From assembly GCA_028287465.1 (NCBI GenBank), contig JAQBPO010000072.1:1-64000 (forward strand): a stretch of DNA of 64,000 nucleotides, in the 5' to 3' direction. Shown here one piece after another: positions 29,484 through 52,214 of the stretch. The translations under genes and the position numbers were made by a program. Below the pieces are notes generated by a model that was not told where the DNA came from, did not search any database, and saw only the letters and a program-made list of their open reading frames with translations. The stretch is from Fibrobacterota bacterium. GTDB taxonomy: Bacteria; Fibrobacterota; Fibrobacteria; UBA11236. How positions within the stretch are numbered: position 1 is the stretch's first letter; each line of letters starts with the position of its first letter.

Positions 29484-29850
29484 GGGGGCGCAAAGGTTTC
29501 GACGGGATTGGATAAGCCGATAGTTGCATGCCGAGGATTCTGGTTGGCCTCGTAAAAAAACCGGAAAAAAACAAATGCAGAAGAATCATATTCTTATGCA
29601 ATGGCTGCCTAGTTAAAACCTAGGTGACCACGGTTCGTCGGTCGCCGCCTTAAAGGCCGACGAATTGCAATACTCTGAGGCTGGGTTCCCCTGATGCCTG
29701 GGCGGGGGAGCCGAGAAAATCCAGGCTAGCGATCCGGAGAACCGATTCCTTGGGTGCTCCGGGCAGCGAGAATCAAATCAGGAATAAAGCATGTAGGAGC
29801 GACCGGTAAGTTAATTTCGGACGCGGGTTCGATTCCCGCCGCCTCCACCA
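29484..29850 (+). ncRNA. ssrA: tmRNA (ssrA)
   Basis: 367 bases. The 5' end GGGGGCG pairs with 3' CGCCTCC (one G-U) to make the tRNA-like acceptor stem, with encoded CCA at 29848-29850 and a T-arm GGGTTCGATTCCCGC. The conserved 5' segment CGCAAAGGTTTCGACGGG is present. The tag reading frame ends at TAG 29610-29612 and encodes NAEESYSYAMAA or a slightly longer peptide; the exact resume codon is unclear. tmRNA with SmpB rescues stalled ribosomes and tags the product for proteolysis. The YAMAA end differs from the common YALAA. Confidence 0.95.
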
Positions 29851-46077: not shown

Positions 46078-47613
46078 TTAGATTATGCCCGTCTGGACCG
46101 CGAGTTGGTCGTACTCCTTGAATTGTCGTATATACGCGAGGTCCTCGTCAGCGTTAATCTTATCGATGTCCTGGAACCCTTTATCCATGGCCTGTTTGAG
46201 GTAATGGAGGCTATCGTCGAAATTCCTGTTCCTCGCGTGGCAACACGCAAGATTGTAAAGGCAATCGGGATCTTCCGGGATCACGGCCAGGAGGCTTACC
46301 AGGGTCAGAAGCGCCTTTTCCCCTTCACCCCGGGAGAGATTGATGCGCGCCAGATCGAACGCCGCTCCCTTCGCGGCGGGATCCAACGCCAGGGCTTTCC
46401 GGTACCTGACCTCCGCCAGGGACTCGGCGCCGCTTTGCGCCAACATGCGGCCGAGCATGGCCAGGTTGACCGCGGTTTCGCCTTCCACCGAAAGCAGTGT
46501 TTCCAAATGGCGTATGGCGTCCTTGGTCCTTCCCAGCTTCCATAGGCCGAGCACCAGGATCTTCCTGAATGCTGAGGTTAGCGCGGCGTCCTCGAACCTC
46601 TGCAGGAATTGGACGCACTTATCGCACTCCCCCATTTCCATCAATAGGGTCAAGGTCGCGAGACGCTCTTCTTCGCCCATCGGATTTTTCTCGAGCAGGC
46701 GCTGGAGCACAATGCCGGCATCGTTCAGTTCCATTTCCTGGATGTGCAGCTTGGCCAATGCCAACAAGGTCGGGACGTGGCCGTCATCGTTCTTAAGGGC
46801 ATCGCGGAATGCGTCGCGCGCGCCGCGGAACTCCTTCCCGGCCAAGCAGAGCCGGCCCAGGATATGGCAGGCCTCGACGTTTCCAGGATTCAATTTCAAG
46901 GCCCTGGCGATGTTTTCCCTGCCCAGGGAAAGGTCTCCCCGCTCAAGCCGGATGATCGCCATGTTCAGCAAGGCCGATTCATAGTTCTCATCCTTGCGTA
47001 CGCAGAGATCGAAATCGCGGAGGGCTTCCTCTTTGCGGCCAAGATGATAGGCCGTGTTGGCCCGGTTGAATAGCGCATCGGTATACTCGGGCGCTTCCGC
47101 GTAGGCTTTGTCGAAATAATCCCACGCCGATCCAAGGTCGCCTTCCAGGAAGGAGACCTGGCCGAGACAGTTCCATAAAGGGGCACGGGCGGCCTTTTGG
47201 GCCAAGCCCGTATTGCAAAGTTCCCTTACCTTCGCCAACTCGCGCAGTTTCAGGTGGCAATTGGCCAGATCGATCAGGCCATGGATATCCGTCGGGTAAT
47301 TTTCGACATAGGCCCGCAGCCTGCTTTTGGCGCCATGATAATCCCCCGCATAGAACAATGCGTTTCCCAGATTAAGCTCATACTCGGGCAGGGGTTTCTC
47401 ATCCATGGCTTGCTTGAAGAAACGGGCAGCTAATGCCTGGTTCTTTTCCTGGAGCGCCAATTCCCCCATCGCATTGAACCATCGATGATCGGCATGTCCG
47501 GACTTCTCCAATTTGGAAAGGGTCTTCCGCATGGCTGCGGAAAGGCCCTTAACCTTTTGGTTTTCATAGAGATCCCACAATGCCGCGCCCATCGTATCCA
47601 TTACCGGGATCAT
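46078..47613 (-). CDS. Cytoplasmic tetratricopeptide-repeat protein
   Basis: About 511 residues from ATG 47613 (AGGTGG just upstream; TTG 47628 and ATGs 47601 and 47592 are alternatives). Nearly the whole protein is TPR hairpins: HRWFNAMGELALQEKNQALAARFFKQAM, YELNLGNALFYAGDYHGAKSRLRAYVENYPTD, YTDALFNRANTAYHLGRKEEALRDFDL and onwards, at least ten. No signal peptide or catalytic domain. It is the first gene of the pair with the coiled-coil protein; together they look like a scaffold complex of unknown target. Confidence 0.82.
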   Translation of the reverse strand: MIPVMDTMGAALWDLYENQKVKGLSAAMRKTLSKLEKSGHADHRWFNAMGELALQEKNQALAARFFKQAMDEKPLPEYELNLGNALFYAGDYHGAKSRLRAYVENYPTDIHGLIDLANCHLKLRELAKVRELCNTGLAQKAARAPLWNCLGQVSFLEGDLGSAWDYFDKAYAEAPEYTDALFNRANTAYHLGRKEEALRDFDLCVRKDENYESALLNMAIIRLERGDLSLGRENIARALKLNPGNVEACHILGRLCLAGKEFRGARDAFRDALKNDDGHVPTLLALAKLHIQEMELNDAGIVLQRLLEKNPMGEEERLATLTLLMEMGECDKCVQFLQRFEDAALTSAFRKILVLGLWKLGRTKDAIRHLETLLSVEGETAVNLAMLGRMLAQSGAESLAEVRYRKALALDPAAKGAAFDLARINLSRGEGEKALLTLVSLLAVIPEDPDCLYNLACCHARNRNFDDSLHYLKQAMDKGFQDIDKINADEDLAYIRQFKEYDQLAVQTGII

Positions 47614-47696
47614 ACCACCTGGCGCCAAAGTGCCGGATACTCGACTTTGCCATGGAAAATGGCTTGGTTTGTAAGGGAGGAAGGGATCGCGGAAAA

Positions 47697-47731
47697 ATCA
47701 AAAAAATAGGCCATTCCCTTAGGGAATGGCC
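47697..47731 (-). terminator. Terminator of the tRNA-Gln transcript
   Basis: On the minus strand GGCCATTCCC and GGGAATGGCC (47731-47722 and 47718-47709) form a 10-bp stem with a 3-base loop, followed by TATTTTTTTGATTTTT. Confidence 0.88.
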
Positions 47732-47783
47732 ATATCTCTTCGGCCAGTAGCCTTCTGGGAAGGCGGTACCGGCCGGGTTAGGC

Positions 47784-47857
47784 TGGTTGGGATGCAAGGA
47801 TTCGAACCTCGATAGCCAGAACCAGAATCTGGCGTCCTGCCATTGGACGACATCCCA
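47784..47857 (-). tRNA. tRNA-Gln (anticodon CTG)
   Basis: 74 bases with encoded CCA (47786-47784). The acceptor stem TGGGATG/CATCCCA is perfect; the anticodon stem CCAGA/TCTGG closes loop TTCTGGT, giving anticodon CTG (reads CAG, glutamine). The T-arm has GGTTCGAATC. A strong promoter lies 11 bp upstream and a terminator 52 bp downstream, so it is a single-gene unit. Confidence 0.95.
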
Positions 47858-47868
47858 GCGCGGTGAAA

Positions 47869-47897
47869 ATCTTAAAAATCTTTACGAGACGGGTCAA
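47869..47897 (-). promoter_or_regulatory. Sigma-70-type promoter of tRNA-Gln
   Basis: Minus strand TTGACC (47897-47892), 17-bp spacer, TAAGAT (47874-47869). The start point would fall about 5 bp before the tRNA. Spacing and -35 are close to ideal. Confidence 0.75.
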
Positions 47898-48012
47898 GGA
47901 TCCGCGTCTTATAATCGTCAATAGTTACCGGCGGCCCCAAGACTTGTGGTTTTCCGGGATGGAATGATGGAGAATTATTTCAGGGCCTTAAAACCCAAAA
48001 AATAGCCAGGAA

Positions 48013-48162
48013 ATGTTAAAGATTTTTGAAAGAATACCGAGTAGTTTAAAGAAGGGTCGTCCCTTCGAGAAGTGTTACCGGGGTGGCTGCATAATGGTTA
48101 CCGAAGTCGCGCCCGCACTCGAAGAAAACAGGCCTGGAGATGAAGGAGTGGGTGAAAAATGA
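48013..48162 (+). CDS. Tiny ORF, 49 aa, ATGA-coupled to the next
   Basis: ATG 48013 to TGA 48160-48162, encoding MLKIFERIPSSLKKGRPFE, then a Cys pair (KCYRGGC) and an acidic C-terminus. Its TGA overlaps the ATG of the next tiny ORF as ATGA. The ribosome-binding site (AGG two bases before ATG) is too close to be good; ATG 48094 inside the frame is an alternative. Shorter than usual gene-calling cut-offs. Function unknown. Confidence 0.35.
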   Translation: MLKIFERIPSSLKKGRPFEKCYRGGCIMVTEVAPALEENRPGDEGVGEK

Positions 48163-48329
48163 AGCACGCCTCGCGTCACGAAGCCATTAAGGACAAGATC
48201 CCCTTTCTAAAGGGCCGGCCGGATCGGGAATTCCCGATTACAAAGGATGATCTTATAAATCTCCAGATCGCTCTTGAGATCCATAGGGATGTCTCGTCCT
48301 TCTGGACGGACAAGCATATCTTCAAATAG
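48159..48329 (+). CDS. Small protein, 56 aa
   Basis: ATG 48159 with GAAGGAGTG about 9 bases upstream, a strong ribosome-binding site. The product begins MKHASRHEAIKDKIPFLKG and ends FWTDKHIFK; it is charged, with a central amphipathic helix-like DDLINLQIALEIHRD. No membrane segment, signal or known motif. It precedes the ABC exporter genes by about 155 bp and overlaps the previous 49-codon ORF as ATGA. I do not recognise it; a regulator, antitoxin-like or secreted peptide are all possible. Confidence 0.5.
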   Translation: MKHASRHEAIKDKIPFLKGRPDREFPITKDDLINLQIALEIHRDVSSFWTDKHIFK

Positions 48330-48484
48330 GGTTATCTAAACTTCCATAGCGTCCCAGCCGGGCGCGGCGCCGCGGGTTACCAACCCGACCTCTTTCCAGG
48401 CCCGGCATTCTTTACCAAATTTCCTCCAGGCCCGAAGCCGGAGGAAATCCCCCCCGCTCCGGGTCCTCATACGAGGCCACTGCC

Positions 48485-50344
48485 ATAACTACCGCGTCCA
48501 TACCGCCGACCCTATCGGCCAAGCCGGTTCCAACCGAGTCCCGCCAAAAAGCGCGGTTCGCCTTCCTGAGGCCGTATCTCGCCCGTCAGAAGGGATTCAT
48601 CCTCGCCGGCTGGATTTTCGTCCTGGTTTCCACCGGCCTTGACCAGGTGACCCCTTGGATGGTCAAGGTGATCCTGGATTCCCTCCAGGCCGGACGGGAC
48701 TTCCCCGCCGTACTGTGGCCCATCGCCGCCATCGTGGGCTCCACCCTGGTCAGCGGTCTTCTCCTGTATTACCAGAGGCTTTGGGTGATCCGCGGTTCCC
48801 GGACCATCGAATACGAAATGCGGAGGGATCTCTTCTCGGGCCTGATGCTCCAGCCCAAGCGGTTTTTCGATCTGCATTCCATCGGCGATATCATGTCCCG
48901 TGCGACCAACGATTTGGATCGCATCCGGGATATGGCCGGCCCGGTCATCCTCCACCTGGCTCGCATGGGGTGCCTGTTGGTCTATACGACCTTCTGCATC
49001 TGGAAGCTGAACCCCCATCTCATGTGGCTGGGATTGTTGCCCTCCCTCATGATGCCCGTGCTCGCGAACTATTTCCTGAAGCGCATGTACGGCCTGTTCG
49101 GAGGGATCCAGAAGAACCTATCCTCGTTGAACTCATTTCTCCAGGACACCATTTCCGGGATCCAGGTCGTAAAGTCGTACGGCAAGCAGGAAGAATTCTC
49201 CGCGAAACTGGCCCGGACATCCCGTGACCTCAGGGATTCCTCCCTGAAAGTCGCCTACTCGAATTCCGTGATCTGGCCGGCCATCGGCGCGCTTGGGGCC
49301 ATCGGGTTGGTCCTGGTCGCCTGGATGGGCGGCAAAATGGTCATCCGCGATCAGATCAGCCTGGGAACCCTGTCGGCGGCCATCCTCTATATCCTCCGCC
49401 TGCAATTCCCTCTGGTGGGCCTGGGTTGGGTGGCCAGCATGATCCAACGGGCCAACGTGTCCATCGACCGGTTATCGGCCCTGAGGAAGTCCTTCCTCGT
49501 GGAGCCCAAGGATCTCGACGCCACCGTCTCCAACGTGGCCGCGGCGGAGAGCAAGCGGGCGGTTTCACCCCAGGGTTCCCTTGCGGGGATCCGGTTGCAG
49601 GGACTTTCCTTCAGGTATGAAACCACCGACGCCAAAAATGCCCCACGTCCGGCCCTGGACGGAATCACCCTGGACATTCCGGCCGGATCGACCTTGGGGA
49701 TCGTAGGTCCCACCGGTTCCGGCAAAACCACTTTGATGCATGTCCTGTGCGGCATCTATCCTCCCTCTCCGGGATCGCTGTTCCTCAACGGCGTGCCGCG
49801 GGAGCAGATCCAGGATGAGGATTGGATCCGCCATTTTACATATGCCCCCCAGGACGGATTCCTGTTCTCCACGAGCATCCGCAACAATATCGAGATGGGC
49901 CGCGGGGCGACTTCGGTGCATACCGTCGAAGAGGCGTCGGAGTGGTCGGCCCTGTCCCGGGATCTGGCCCAATTCCCGTTGGGCTACGATACCATGTTGG
50001 GCGAGAAAGGGATCAATCTGAGCGGGGGCCAACGCCAGCGCGTCGGGTTGGCCAGGGCCCTATTGGCGAACATGCCCGTGCTCGGGTTGGACGATACCCT
50101 TTCGGCGCTGGACACGGAAACCGAGACCTTGGTCCTGGAGCAATTGCGCAGGCGGTTCGAAGGCCGGACCGTGCTGATCGTTTCCCACCGTTATTCGGCC
50201 GTCATGGGCTGCGACAAGATCATCTTCCTCGCGGACGGGAGAATCCTGGAACAGGGCACGCATGCGAAACTTCTCCGCCTGGGAGGAGCCTACGCTTCCG
50301 TATGGGAAAAGCAACGCCTCCGTTCGGCCCTGGAATCGGATTGA
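48485..50344 (+). CDS. ABC exporter half-transporter with degenerate site, non-canonical start
   Basis: About 619 residues if started at ATA 48485 (GAGG 8 bases upstream). The first canonical start is GTG 48647, but that would remove TM helix 1: the upstream frame encodes KARFAFLRPYLARQKGFILAGWIFVLVSTGLDQVTPWM, the usual exporter N-terminus. Six TM helices (about 35-330) precede a nucleotide-binding domain with Walker A GPTGSGKTT, Q-loop, signature NLSGGQRQ and Walker B MPVLGLDDTLSALD. The catalytic Glu after Walker B is Asp, as in the degenerate-site subunit of heterodimeric exporters of the TM287/288 type. It pairs with the next gene. Confidence 0.85.
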   Translation: MTTASIPPTLSAKPVPTESRQKARFAFLRPYLARQKGFILAGWIFVLVSTGLDQVTPWMVKVILDSLQAGRDFPAVLWPIAAIVGSTLVSGLLLYYQRLWVIRGSRTIEYEMRRDLFSGLMLQPKRFFDLHSIGDIMSRATNDLDRIRDMAGPVILHLARMGCLLVYTTFCIWKLNPHLMWLGLLPSLMMPVLANYFLKRMYGLFGGIQKNLSSLNSFLQDTISGIQVVKSYGKQEEFSAKLARTSRDLRDSSLKVAYSNSVIWPAIGALGAIGLVLVAWMGGKMVIRDQISLGTLSAAILYILRLQFPLVGLGWVASMIQRANVSIDRLSALRKSFLVEPKDLDATVSNVAAAESKRAVSPQGSLAGIRLQGLSFRYETTDAKNAPRPALDGITLDIPAGSTLGIVGPTGSGKTTLMHVLCGIYPPSPGSLFLNGVPREQIQDEDWIRHFTYAPQDGFLFSTSIRNNIEMGRGATSVHTVEEASEWSALSRDLAQFPLGYDTMLGEKGINLSGGQRQRVGLARALLANMPVLGLDDTLSALDTETETLVLEQLRRRFEGRTVLIVSHRYSAVMGCDKIIFLADGRILEQGTHAKLLRLGGAYASVWEKQRLRSALESD

Positions 50345-50384: not shown

Positions 50385-52214
50385 ATGGCGGAACGCAAAG
50401 AATACCTCAGCGAAGACAAGGTGGCGCGGTTCCTGGACCGGAACCTTTGGATTCGGCTTATCGCATTGGCGAAAGGACATAAGGGCACGGCGTTCATCGC
50501 CTTCTTCTTCCTCATCACCTCGGAAATCCTCCCGGTGCTTCAGCCGCGCATCCTGAAGGACATGATCGACGGTCCCATCAGGGCCAAGAACATCGATGGC
50601 ATCACCCCGTTCATGATCGCCTTCGTCGCCCTGGTCGTTCTTTCCGGCGCCCTGGAATACCTGCGCGCGGTGGCAAGCCAGAAGCTCGGCCTATCCATCA
50701 TCCATGAGTTGCGCGTGCAGATCTTCGCCCGTCTCCAAGGTTTCAGCATGGATTTCTTCCACCGCACTCCGGTGGGACGCCTGATGACCCGCCTGGGGAA
50801 CGATATCGACTCCCTGAGCAGCATGTTCACGGAAGGCCTGATCGAGCTCCTCGGCGCCATCCTAATGATCGCCTATGCCGTGGTCTTCATGTTCATGCTG
50901 GACTGGAAGCTCGCATTGGCTTCCCTGGCGGTCCTGCCCCTAATGATCCTGACCACGTCCATCTTCAGGGAAAAGGTCCGCAAGAACAATACGGTGATCC
51001 GCGGGTACATCGCCGAGCTGAACTCCATCATGCAGGAAAGCCTGGCCGGCATCCACATCGTGCGGATTTTCGGTAAGGTTTCGGAGCAGATCCGCAAGTT
51101 CGACGAGGTGAACCGGACCACGCGAGGCGAGTGGTACAAGAACGTGCGGTATTATTCCGTGTTCTTCCCCGTCATCAACGGCCTCACCGAGATTTCCATC
51201 GCCGTCCTGTATTTCGCCGGAGCCTATTTTTTCTTCAGGCATTCGGTTTCCCTGGGGACCTTGATCGCCTTCTCCTGGTATACCGGGCTGTTCTTCCGGC
51301 CCCTTAGGGAGCTTAGCGATAAGATCACGGCCTTGCAGAGCGCCTTGGCCGCGGCCGAACGCGTCTTTACCCTGTTCGATACCCGGGCCTCGCTTCCCGA
51401 CGGACCCCGCCGGGACTTCGCCGAAAGGCCGGATATCGTATTCGAAAACGTGACCTTCGCCTACGAAGACGGGAAGACCGTGCTCAGCGAGGTTTCCTTC
51501 GATGTCAAGCCTGGGGAGTCCGTCGCCATCGTCGGAGCCACGGGAAGCGGCAAGAGCACCACCATTTCCCTCTGCAACAAGTTCTACCTGCCGGATGAGG
51601 GCCGCATCCTGATCGGCGGGCACGCCATCCAGGAATATGAGGAAGGGGCATTGCGCAGGCACGTGAGCCTGATATCGCAGGACGTTTACCTCTTCTCCGA
51701 ATCCATCGCTTTCAACGTGGCATTATCCCCGGATTTCGACTTGATGCGCGTTGAAGAGGTTTGCCGTTACGTGAACGCCCATGAGTTCATCCAACGGATG
51801 CCCGATGGATATGCCACAAGGTTGAAGGAGCGGGGCGAGAACCTTTCCGCCGGCCAAAGGCAGTTGCTCGCTTTCGCCCGGGCCCTTTATCACCGGCCCA
51901 GGATCCTGCTTTTGGACGAGGCGACTTCTTCGGTGGACACGGCCACCGAAGCCCTGGTACAGGAAGCTTTGGACAAGATCCTCCGCAATATGACCTCCAT
52001 AGTGGTGGCGCATCGTCTTTCCACCATCCAGAAGGCCTCCAAAATCCTGGTGATGCATAAAGGGCGGATCCGAGAAGAAGGTACCCATCAGGAGCTTTTG
52101 AGAATGGGTGGCATTTATTACAAGCTCTACCAATTGCAGAACTTCGATGGAGATGCGGAACCATCACTTGAGGACCTTAAAGCGGCCCAGGCGAATCCTG
52201 CCGGTCCCGTCTGA
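50385..52214 (+). CDS. ABC exporter half-transporter, canonical subunit
   Basis: About 609 residues from ATG 50385, chosen because AAAGATGGAAGC lies just upstream and the earlier in-frame codons overlap the preceding gene. Six TM helices (about 35-325) are followed by an intact nucleotide-binding domain: Walker A GATGSGKSTT, signature NLSAGQRQLLAFARAL, Walker B ILLLDEATSSVD with catalytic Glu, H-loop VVAHRLS. It forms a heterodimeric type IV exporter with the upstream subunit; substrates of this group are lipids, drugs or peptides. A C-terminal Asp/Glu/Pro tail is present. Confidence 0.9.
   Translation: MAERKEYLSEDKVARFLDRNLWIRLIALAKGHKGTAFIAFFFLITSEILPVLQPRILKDMIDGPIRAKNIDGITPFMIAFVALVVLSGALEYLRAVASQKLGLSIIHELRVQIFARLQGFSMDFFHRTPVGRLMTRLGNDIDSLSSMFTEGLIELLGAILMIAYAVVFMFMLDWKLALASLAVLPLMILTTSIFREKVRKNNTVIRGYIAELNSIMQESLAGIHIVRIFGKVSEQIRKFDEVNRTTRGEWYKNVRYYSVFFPVINGLTEISIAVLYFAGAYFFFRHSVSLGTLIAFSWYTGLFFRPLRELSDKITALQSALAAAERVFTLFDTRASLPDGPRRDFAERPDIVFENVTFAYEDGKTVLSEVSFDVKPGESVAIVGATGSGKSTTISLCNKFYLPDEGRILIGGHAIQEYEEGALRRHVSLISQDVYLFSESIAFNVALSPDFDLMRVEEVCRYVNAHEFIQRMPDGYATRLKERGENLSAGQRQLLAFARALYHRPRILLLDEATSSVDTATEALVQEALDKILRNMTSIVVAHRLSTIQKASKILVMHKGRIREEGTHQELLRMGGIYYKLYQLQNFDGDAEPSLEDLKAAQANPAGPV

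Follow-up and report, generated by a model that had tools for sequence, protein, structure and literature searches.

Heterodimeric ABC exporters of the SmdAB / TM287-288 type are the closest described counterparts of the transporter considered here, and the likeness lies in tandem halves with one degenerate ATPase site. AcrZ-like proteins are transporter-bound membrane microproteins. The peptide substrates of exporters are typically variable in sequence. A separate parallel concerns translation initiation. According to PMC5472188, genes with non-AUG starts, such as infC (ATT/ATC) and Streptomyces sigR (GTC), are repressed by IF3.

The locus lies in a stretch of 64,000 nucleotides (hereafter the window) from a Fibrobacterota bacterium, contig JAQBPO010000072.1 of assembly GCA_028287465.1. 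It encodes two proteins, ABC1 and ABC2, in tandem on the plus strand, each with Pfam ABC_membrane and ABC_tran domains. As read by eye, ABC1 carries the Walker B motif LGLDD with LSGGQ, and ABC2 LLLDE with LSAGQ. With two full TMD-NBD halves and one site predicted to be degenerate, the pair conforms to the heterodimeric ABC type. The two halves differ from SmdA, SmdB and MsbA in scoring below the NCBIfam equivalog cut-offs. The MsbA lipid A flippase was rejected as an identity since the TIGR02203 cut-off is missed (438.8 of 602 bits for ABC2). The type also differs from SmdAB / TM287-288 exporters by an extra small gene, ORF2, upstream of the transporter in 9 of 13 genomes (see below).

Table 1. 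Features of the locus (positions in the window)
Feature	Position	Strand	Description and basis
tRNA-Gln (CTG anticodon)	47784..47857	-	divergent neighbour; ARAGORN; synteny kept in the two genera of the family that were examined
ORF1-region nucleotide block	48011..48061	+	conserved, seen only in the genus; alignments
ORF1	48013..48162	+	49 codons, ATG start; open frame, unsupported as a protein gene
ORF2 Shine-Dalgarno AAGGAG	48143..48148	+	10 nt before the ORF2 ATG; sequence
ORF2	48159..48329	+	56 codons/56 aa, ATG start; small protein with GRPxR...DDxxNL domain; real gene
CTCTTTCCA-N12-TTTA block	48390..48414	+	between ORF2 and exporter; alignment of six genus genomes, partly G008
GAGG, Shine-Dalgarno-like	48473..48476	+	8 nt before the probable AUA start; sequence
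ABC1	48485..50344	+	exporter half, degenerate Walker B; Pfam; probable AUA start at 48485
ABC2	50385..52214	+	exporter half, consensus Walker B (LLLDE); Pfam; sequence

The first-pass annotation had described two tiny ORFs overlapping as ATGA, the second with a strong ribosome-binding site, between tRNA-Gln and a heterodimeric exporter. This layout is confirmed in every part (Table 1), with the overlap at 48159-48162. The overlap itself is weak evidence, since ORF2 begins with ATGA and any frame in that register stops there. Among the six genomes of the genus, ORF1 ends on this TGA in three, 2-4 nt before the ORF2 ATG in two and inside ORF2 in one. The sequence GAAGGAGTGG at the ORF2 Shine-Dalgarno site is identical in the alignment of all six. 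Over 47600-48700 only the tRNA reaches an Rfam gathering score. On the minus strand, between tRNA-Gln and a TPR-like gene, a stem of 10 pairs followed by a T-rich tail (47709-47731) is a probable terminator. Elsewhere in the window, 29484-29850 holds a tmRNA gene with the predicted tag AEESYSYAMAA.

ORF2 is a genuine small-protein gene under strong purifying selection. It is full-length in all six genus genomes, where the relatives are 84-95% identical to the window. Its pN/pS over these genomes is 0.10, whereas the other two frames give 1.70 and 3.97, and it is this confinement of purifying selection to one frame that identifies a protein gene. Conservation of the frames in relatives had been named beforehand as the check on the two ORFs; ORF2 passes it and ORF1 (see below) does not. 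A search with ORF2 of the window's own genome and 60 relatives gives matches in 12 of the 61 at E <= 0.1, those in G007, G009 and G010 being to a paralogue. The AlphaFold2 model, built from 16 sequences, is only fair (mean pLDDT 72, pTM 0.42) and predicts helices at residues 6-11, 29-41 and 45-51. A sequence search of solved structures gave no match up to E 10, and a fold search of the PDB gave one match, at E 9.9; none is usable.

Co-occurrence of a small ORF with the exporter, proposed as a check by the first-pass annotation, holds for ORF2. An exporter orthologue (ABC1 as query, E <= 1e-110) is present in 13 of 167 genomes of the phylum, a count that could miss some orthologues because only 7 of many ABC candidates per genome were scored. 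In nine of the thirteen (G000-G006, G008 and G055), ORF2 immediately precedes the exporter in the same orientation. These represent two families, G055 belonging to the other one and having an ABC1 39% identical. In G007, G009, G012 (~1.5 kb read) and G014 (~0.7 kb read) the sequence ahead of the exporter showed no ORF2, which indicates that it is not an obligate subunit. In G007 and G009, tRNA-Gln stands close to the exporter in place of ORF2, and this tRNA is part of the gene order in both genera of the window's family. Downstream, a tRNA-Ser or a coaBC-like gene is found in most loci whose sequence extends that far (we assigned the names coaBC and TPR by reading the sequences, not by a family scan). 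Since these genes are syntenic too, part of the ORF2-exporter linkage may be plain gene order. The exporter-linked ORF2 copies share a D.H.F-like C-terminal end and group together in a midpoint-rooted tree with support 0.77; being drawn from 48-residue segments, the grouping is only suggestive.

The linkage points to a role with the exporter. ORF2 may well be a small soluble cytosolic protein that serves as an accessory or regulatory partner of the transporter and is probably made with it, a reading we hold tentatively. What computation establishes is the purifying selection on ORF2, its adjacency to the exporter in two families, the occurrence of its domain across the phylum and the lack of a membrane segment; co-transcription with the exporter and action on it are what we infer from these. 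The first-pass annotation had considered a small-peptide, immunity or regulatory role. The link to the exporter sustains the last of these, as far as linkage goes, while ORF2 is probably neither an exported peptide nor a membrane immunity protein. A transmembrane helix, as would be expected of a membrane immunity protein or of a transporter-bound membrane microprotein of the AcrZ kind, is absent from ORF2, the mean hydropathy over 19 residues nowhere exceeding 0.46. Adjacency to an ABC exporter would also suit a peptide substrate, bacteriocin-like or a signal peptide, for which ORF1 would provide the leader or the immunity partner. This is most improbable: the Pfam scan finds no peptidase domain (Peptidase C39) in either exporter half, ORF2 has no GG motif or double-glycine leader, its 84-95% identity across the genus is unlike the variability typical of such substrates, and relatives of its domain are found at non-transporter loci.

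These relatives define a domain family with the signature IPFLxGRPxR...I..DD..NL.IAL....V..F. At E <= 0.01 a profile built from ORF2 and its paralogues has matches, a few of which or more are weak, in 51 of the 167 genomes of Fibrobacterota, covering 30 of 40 genera; many of the 167 genomes come from one genus, g4, of which one genome is listed with a match (E 0.006). The domain takes the form of ~60-residue proteins, of the exporter-linked form, and of the tails of ~130-150-residue proteins with CxxC pairs. The CxxC-pair proteins resemble zinc ribbons (L045 and L046; also L020, L023, L025 and L026), and their Pfam zinc-ribbon matches are below threshold. Among the 45 context loci that do not belong to the exporter group, an Hsp20 gene follows the ORF2 relative directly and in the same orientation in 9; a Pfam check was made of one (E 3.5e-25), the other eight being assigned by blastp clustering. 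The Hsp20-linked relatives (L077, L078, L086, L101, L103, L105, L106, L110 and L111) come from four families of the phylum. In 12 of the 45, the opposite strand carries a gene that we call PilT-like from its sequence.

It follows that adjacency need not mean a functional partner. ORF2 could instead be a small regulator or adaptor that works independently and has some shared component of the cell as its partner, the exporter being merely a stable neighbour. That such paralogues adjoin unrelated genes, that an ORF2-type domain ends zinc-ribbon-like proteins and that four of the thirteen exporter genomes have no upstream ORF2 make this a possible account, on which we place some weight. Set against it, the exporter-linked copies form a group of their own and the link spans two families, and a partnership with the exporter stays our preferred reading.

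The domain has so far been found convincingly only in Fibrobacterota. Across 84,980 species, each represented by one genome, a scan gave 16 loci, 15 of them in Fibrobacterota and one in Streptomyces; because the scan relied on a single short peptide pattern, it could have missed distant relatives elsewhere. The Streptomyces locus was rejected, being another protein that matches IPFLGGRP by chance. Phage records yielded no match up to E 1, and none of 27 pattern matches in viral contigs was confirmed. In Pfam, NCBIfam, PHROGs (ORF1 and ORF2 only) and PADLOC (16 family members), neither of the two ORFs nor any relative scanned had a match above threshold. The nearest likeness is to DUF2795 (PF11387), which residues 24-34 of ORF2 match weakly at 14.2 bits; this is less than the gathering score of 25, occurs in one of 16 family members scanned and is unconvincing. 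Equally unconvincing is DUF4447 (below threshold, 2 of 16 members, best E 0.0084). In the literature available to us in part, we recognised nothing describing the ORF2 family or the ABC1 start codon.

ORF2 and ABC1 are separated by 155 nt holding a conserved block. The pattern CTCTTTCCA-N12-TTTA is found at the locus in the five genus genomes searched, and elsewhere once in G000, once in G001 and twice in G010, a control pattern giving 0-3 matches per genome. The alternative pattern CCTCTTTCCA-N6..9-CTTTA had no matches, the spacing in the block being N12. The block is a putative promoter or operator. If it is a separate promoter, ORF2 and the exporter could be transcribed apart; their co-transcription is put forward as probable. 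No terminator-like site was found on the plus strand between the two genes, and RNA folding of the gap gives a weak consensus only.

ORF1 is a different case. As a protein it is not supported, showing no codon-level constraint, no conserved ribosome site and no match outside the genus. Over its first 19 codons pN/pS is 0.77, compared with 0.58 and 0.66 in the other frames, so that purifying selection confined to its own frame is not seen in this small sample of 19 codons and six sequences. From codon 20 to the end the value is 1.97 (window, G002 and G005), 3.14 (window and G002) or, with G003 added, 0.87. A protein search of 11 genomes gave four matches, all within the genus (G000, G002, G003 and G005), and none in G001 or G004 of the genus nor in the five non-genus genomes. 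What is conserved is nucleotide sequence, over the first ~50 bases of ORF1. Its start block ATG(T/C)TAAAG is present in all six genus genomes and unseen in the aligned regions of G006 and G008. An 18-base core of the 48011..48061 block, searched with up to 2 mismatches, occurs once per genome, at the locus, in five genus genomes searched (not G005), with two further matches elsewhere in G010; the reversed control pattern gives 0-2 matches per genome. This block is likely a 5' regulatory or leader sequence, and ORF1 probably represents untranslated sequence ahead of ORF2 or, at the most, a leader without constraint. That ORF1 is translated into a short leader peptide, coupling or attenuating the translation of ORF2, appears unlikely. 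This would accord with a frame that stays open to within 4 bases of the ORF2 start, or onto it, in five of the six genus genomes, and with the recognisability of the first ~17 codons in all six. The pN/pS of codons 1-19, not below that of the other frames, and of the remainder (1.97 or 0.87) argues against it, as do the lack of a Shine-Dalgarno sequence ahead of the ORF1 ATG by eye in the relatives, the unsupported RNA fold over the region (z-score -0.06, weak consensus) and a protein search with no match in two of six genus genomes and all five outside. ORF1 contains RGGC. That it might be a decayed ORF2 copy was rejected, the alignment scores being equalled in 240 to 1698 of 3000 shuffles.

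The start of ABC1 is unusual. In the window, G003 and G005, no ATG, GTG or TTG occurs in the ABC1 frame between the last stop and the conserved N-terminus (RFAFLRPYL or RYGFLKPYL). The earliest ATG shared across the genus stands 35 codons inside this anchor. The 33 codons from the anchor, ahead of the common ATG, have a pN/pS of 0.19 over six genomes and 0.17 over the window, G003 and G005 (1.73 to 3.15 in other frames), indicating that they are translated. In the window and G005, with starts considered as far as 1.5 kb upstream, every standard-start ORF in the plus frames ends before the near-cognate codon, leaving no room for entry through a frameshift in these two; G003 has two short ORFs in other frames that do pass it. 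Exactly one ATA/ATC/ATT codon is available in G003 and in G005, an ATC with GCC or GCT as the next codon. Of the four in the window, the ATA at 48485 aligns with this ATC. The aligned codon is thus ATA in the window, ATT in one relative and ATC in four of the five, and by reading of the alignment GAGG, AAGG or GGAG precedes it by 7-8 bases in all six (GAGG by 8 in the window). Standard starts upstream of the anchor are found in the remaining three genomes (ATG in G001, TTG in G002, TTG and GTG in G004), so that a near-cognate start would be needed in three and optional in three. The likeliest start of ABC1 is this aligned AUA/AUC codon behind a purine-rich site.

Two further tries may be recorded. 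The distance from frame opening to first start was rejected as a sole diagnostic, since it is long in other ORFs too; the window's ABC1 is absent from that list as it overlaps the frame of ABC2. infC was rejected as a second non-AUG gene of this genus, an in-frame TTG being present near its start in the four genus genomes looked at.

ABC1 would resemble the IF3-repressed non-AUG genes of PMC5472188 in its lack of an ATG, GTG or TTG start in the window, G003 and G005 and in its aligned ATA/ATC behind a purine-rich site. It differs in being an exporter gene, and IF3 control of ABC1 is hypothetical. A start at the near-cognate AUA would hold synthesis of ABC1 low or under initiation-factor control. 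A bolder scheme makes the GRPxR...DDxxNL protein a phylum-wide adaptor that tunes the gene encoded alongside it, be that the exporter or Hsp20, and that acts with the AUA/AUC start to gate initiation of the exporter half; we regard it as very improbable.

On the preferred reading, ORF2 would represent the branch linked to the exporter within a small-domain family that has been seen in no phylum but Fibrobacterota so far. It would most likely adjust the amount or activity of the heterodimeric ABC exporter, and would be dispensable on an evolutionary scale, in an exporter operon whose first transporter gene may initiate weakly. A near-cognate start kept on a transporter subunit would join the few characterised bacterial genes of this kind, and standard gene calling would misplace the ABC1 N-terminus in at least three of these genomes. 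The domain itself is widespread in a poorly studied phylum and belongs to no above-threshold family in the libraries scanned, and it has probably been overlooked.
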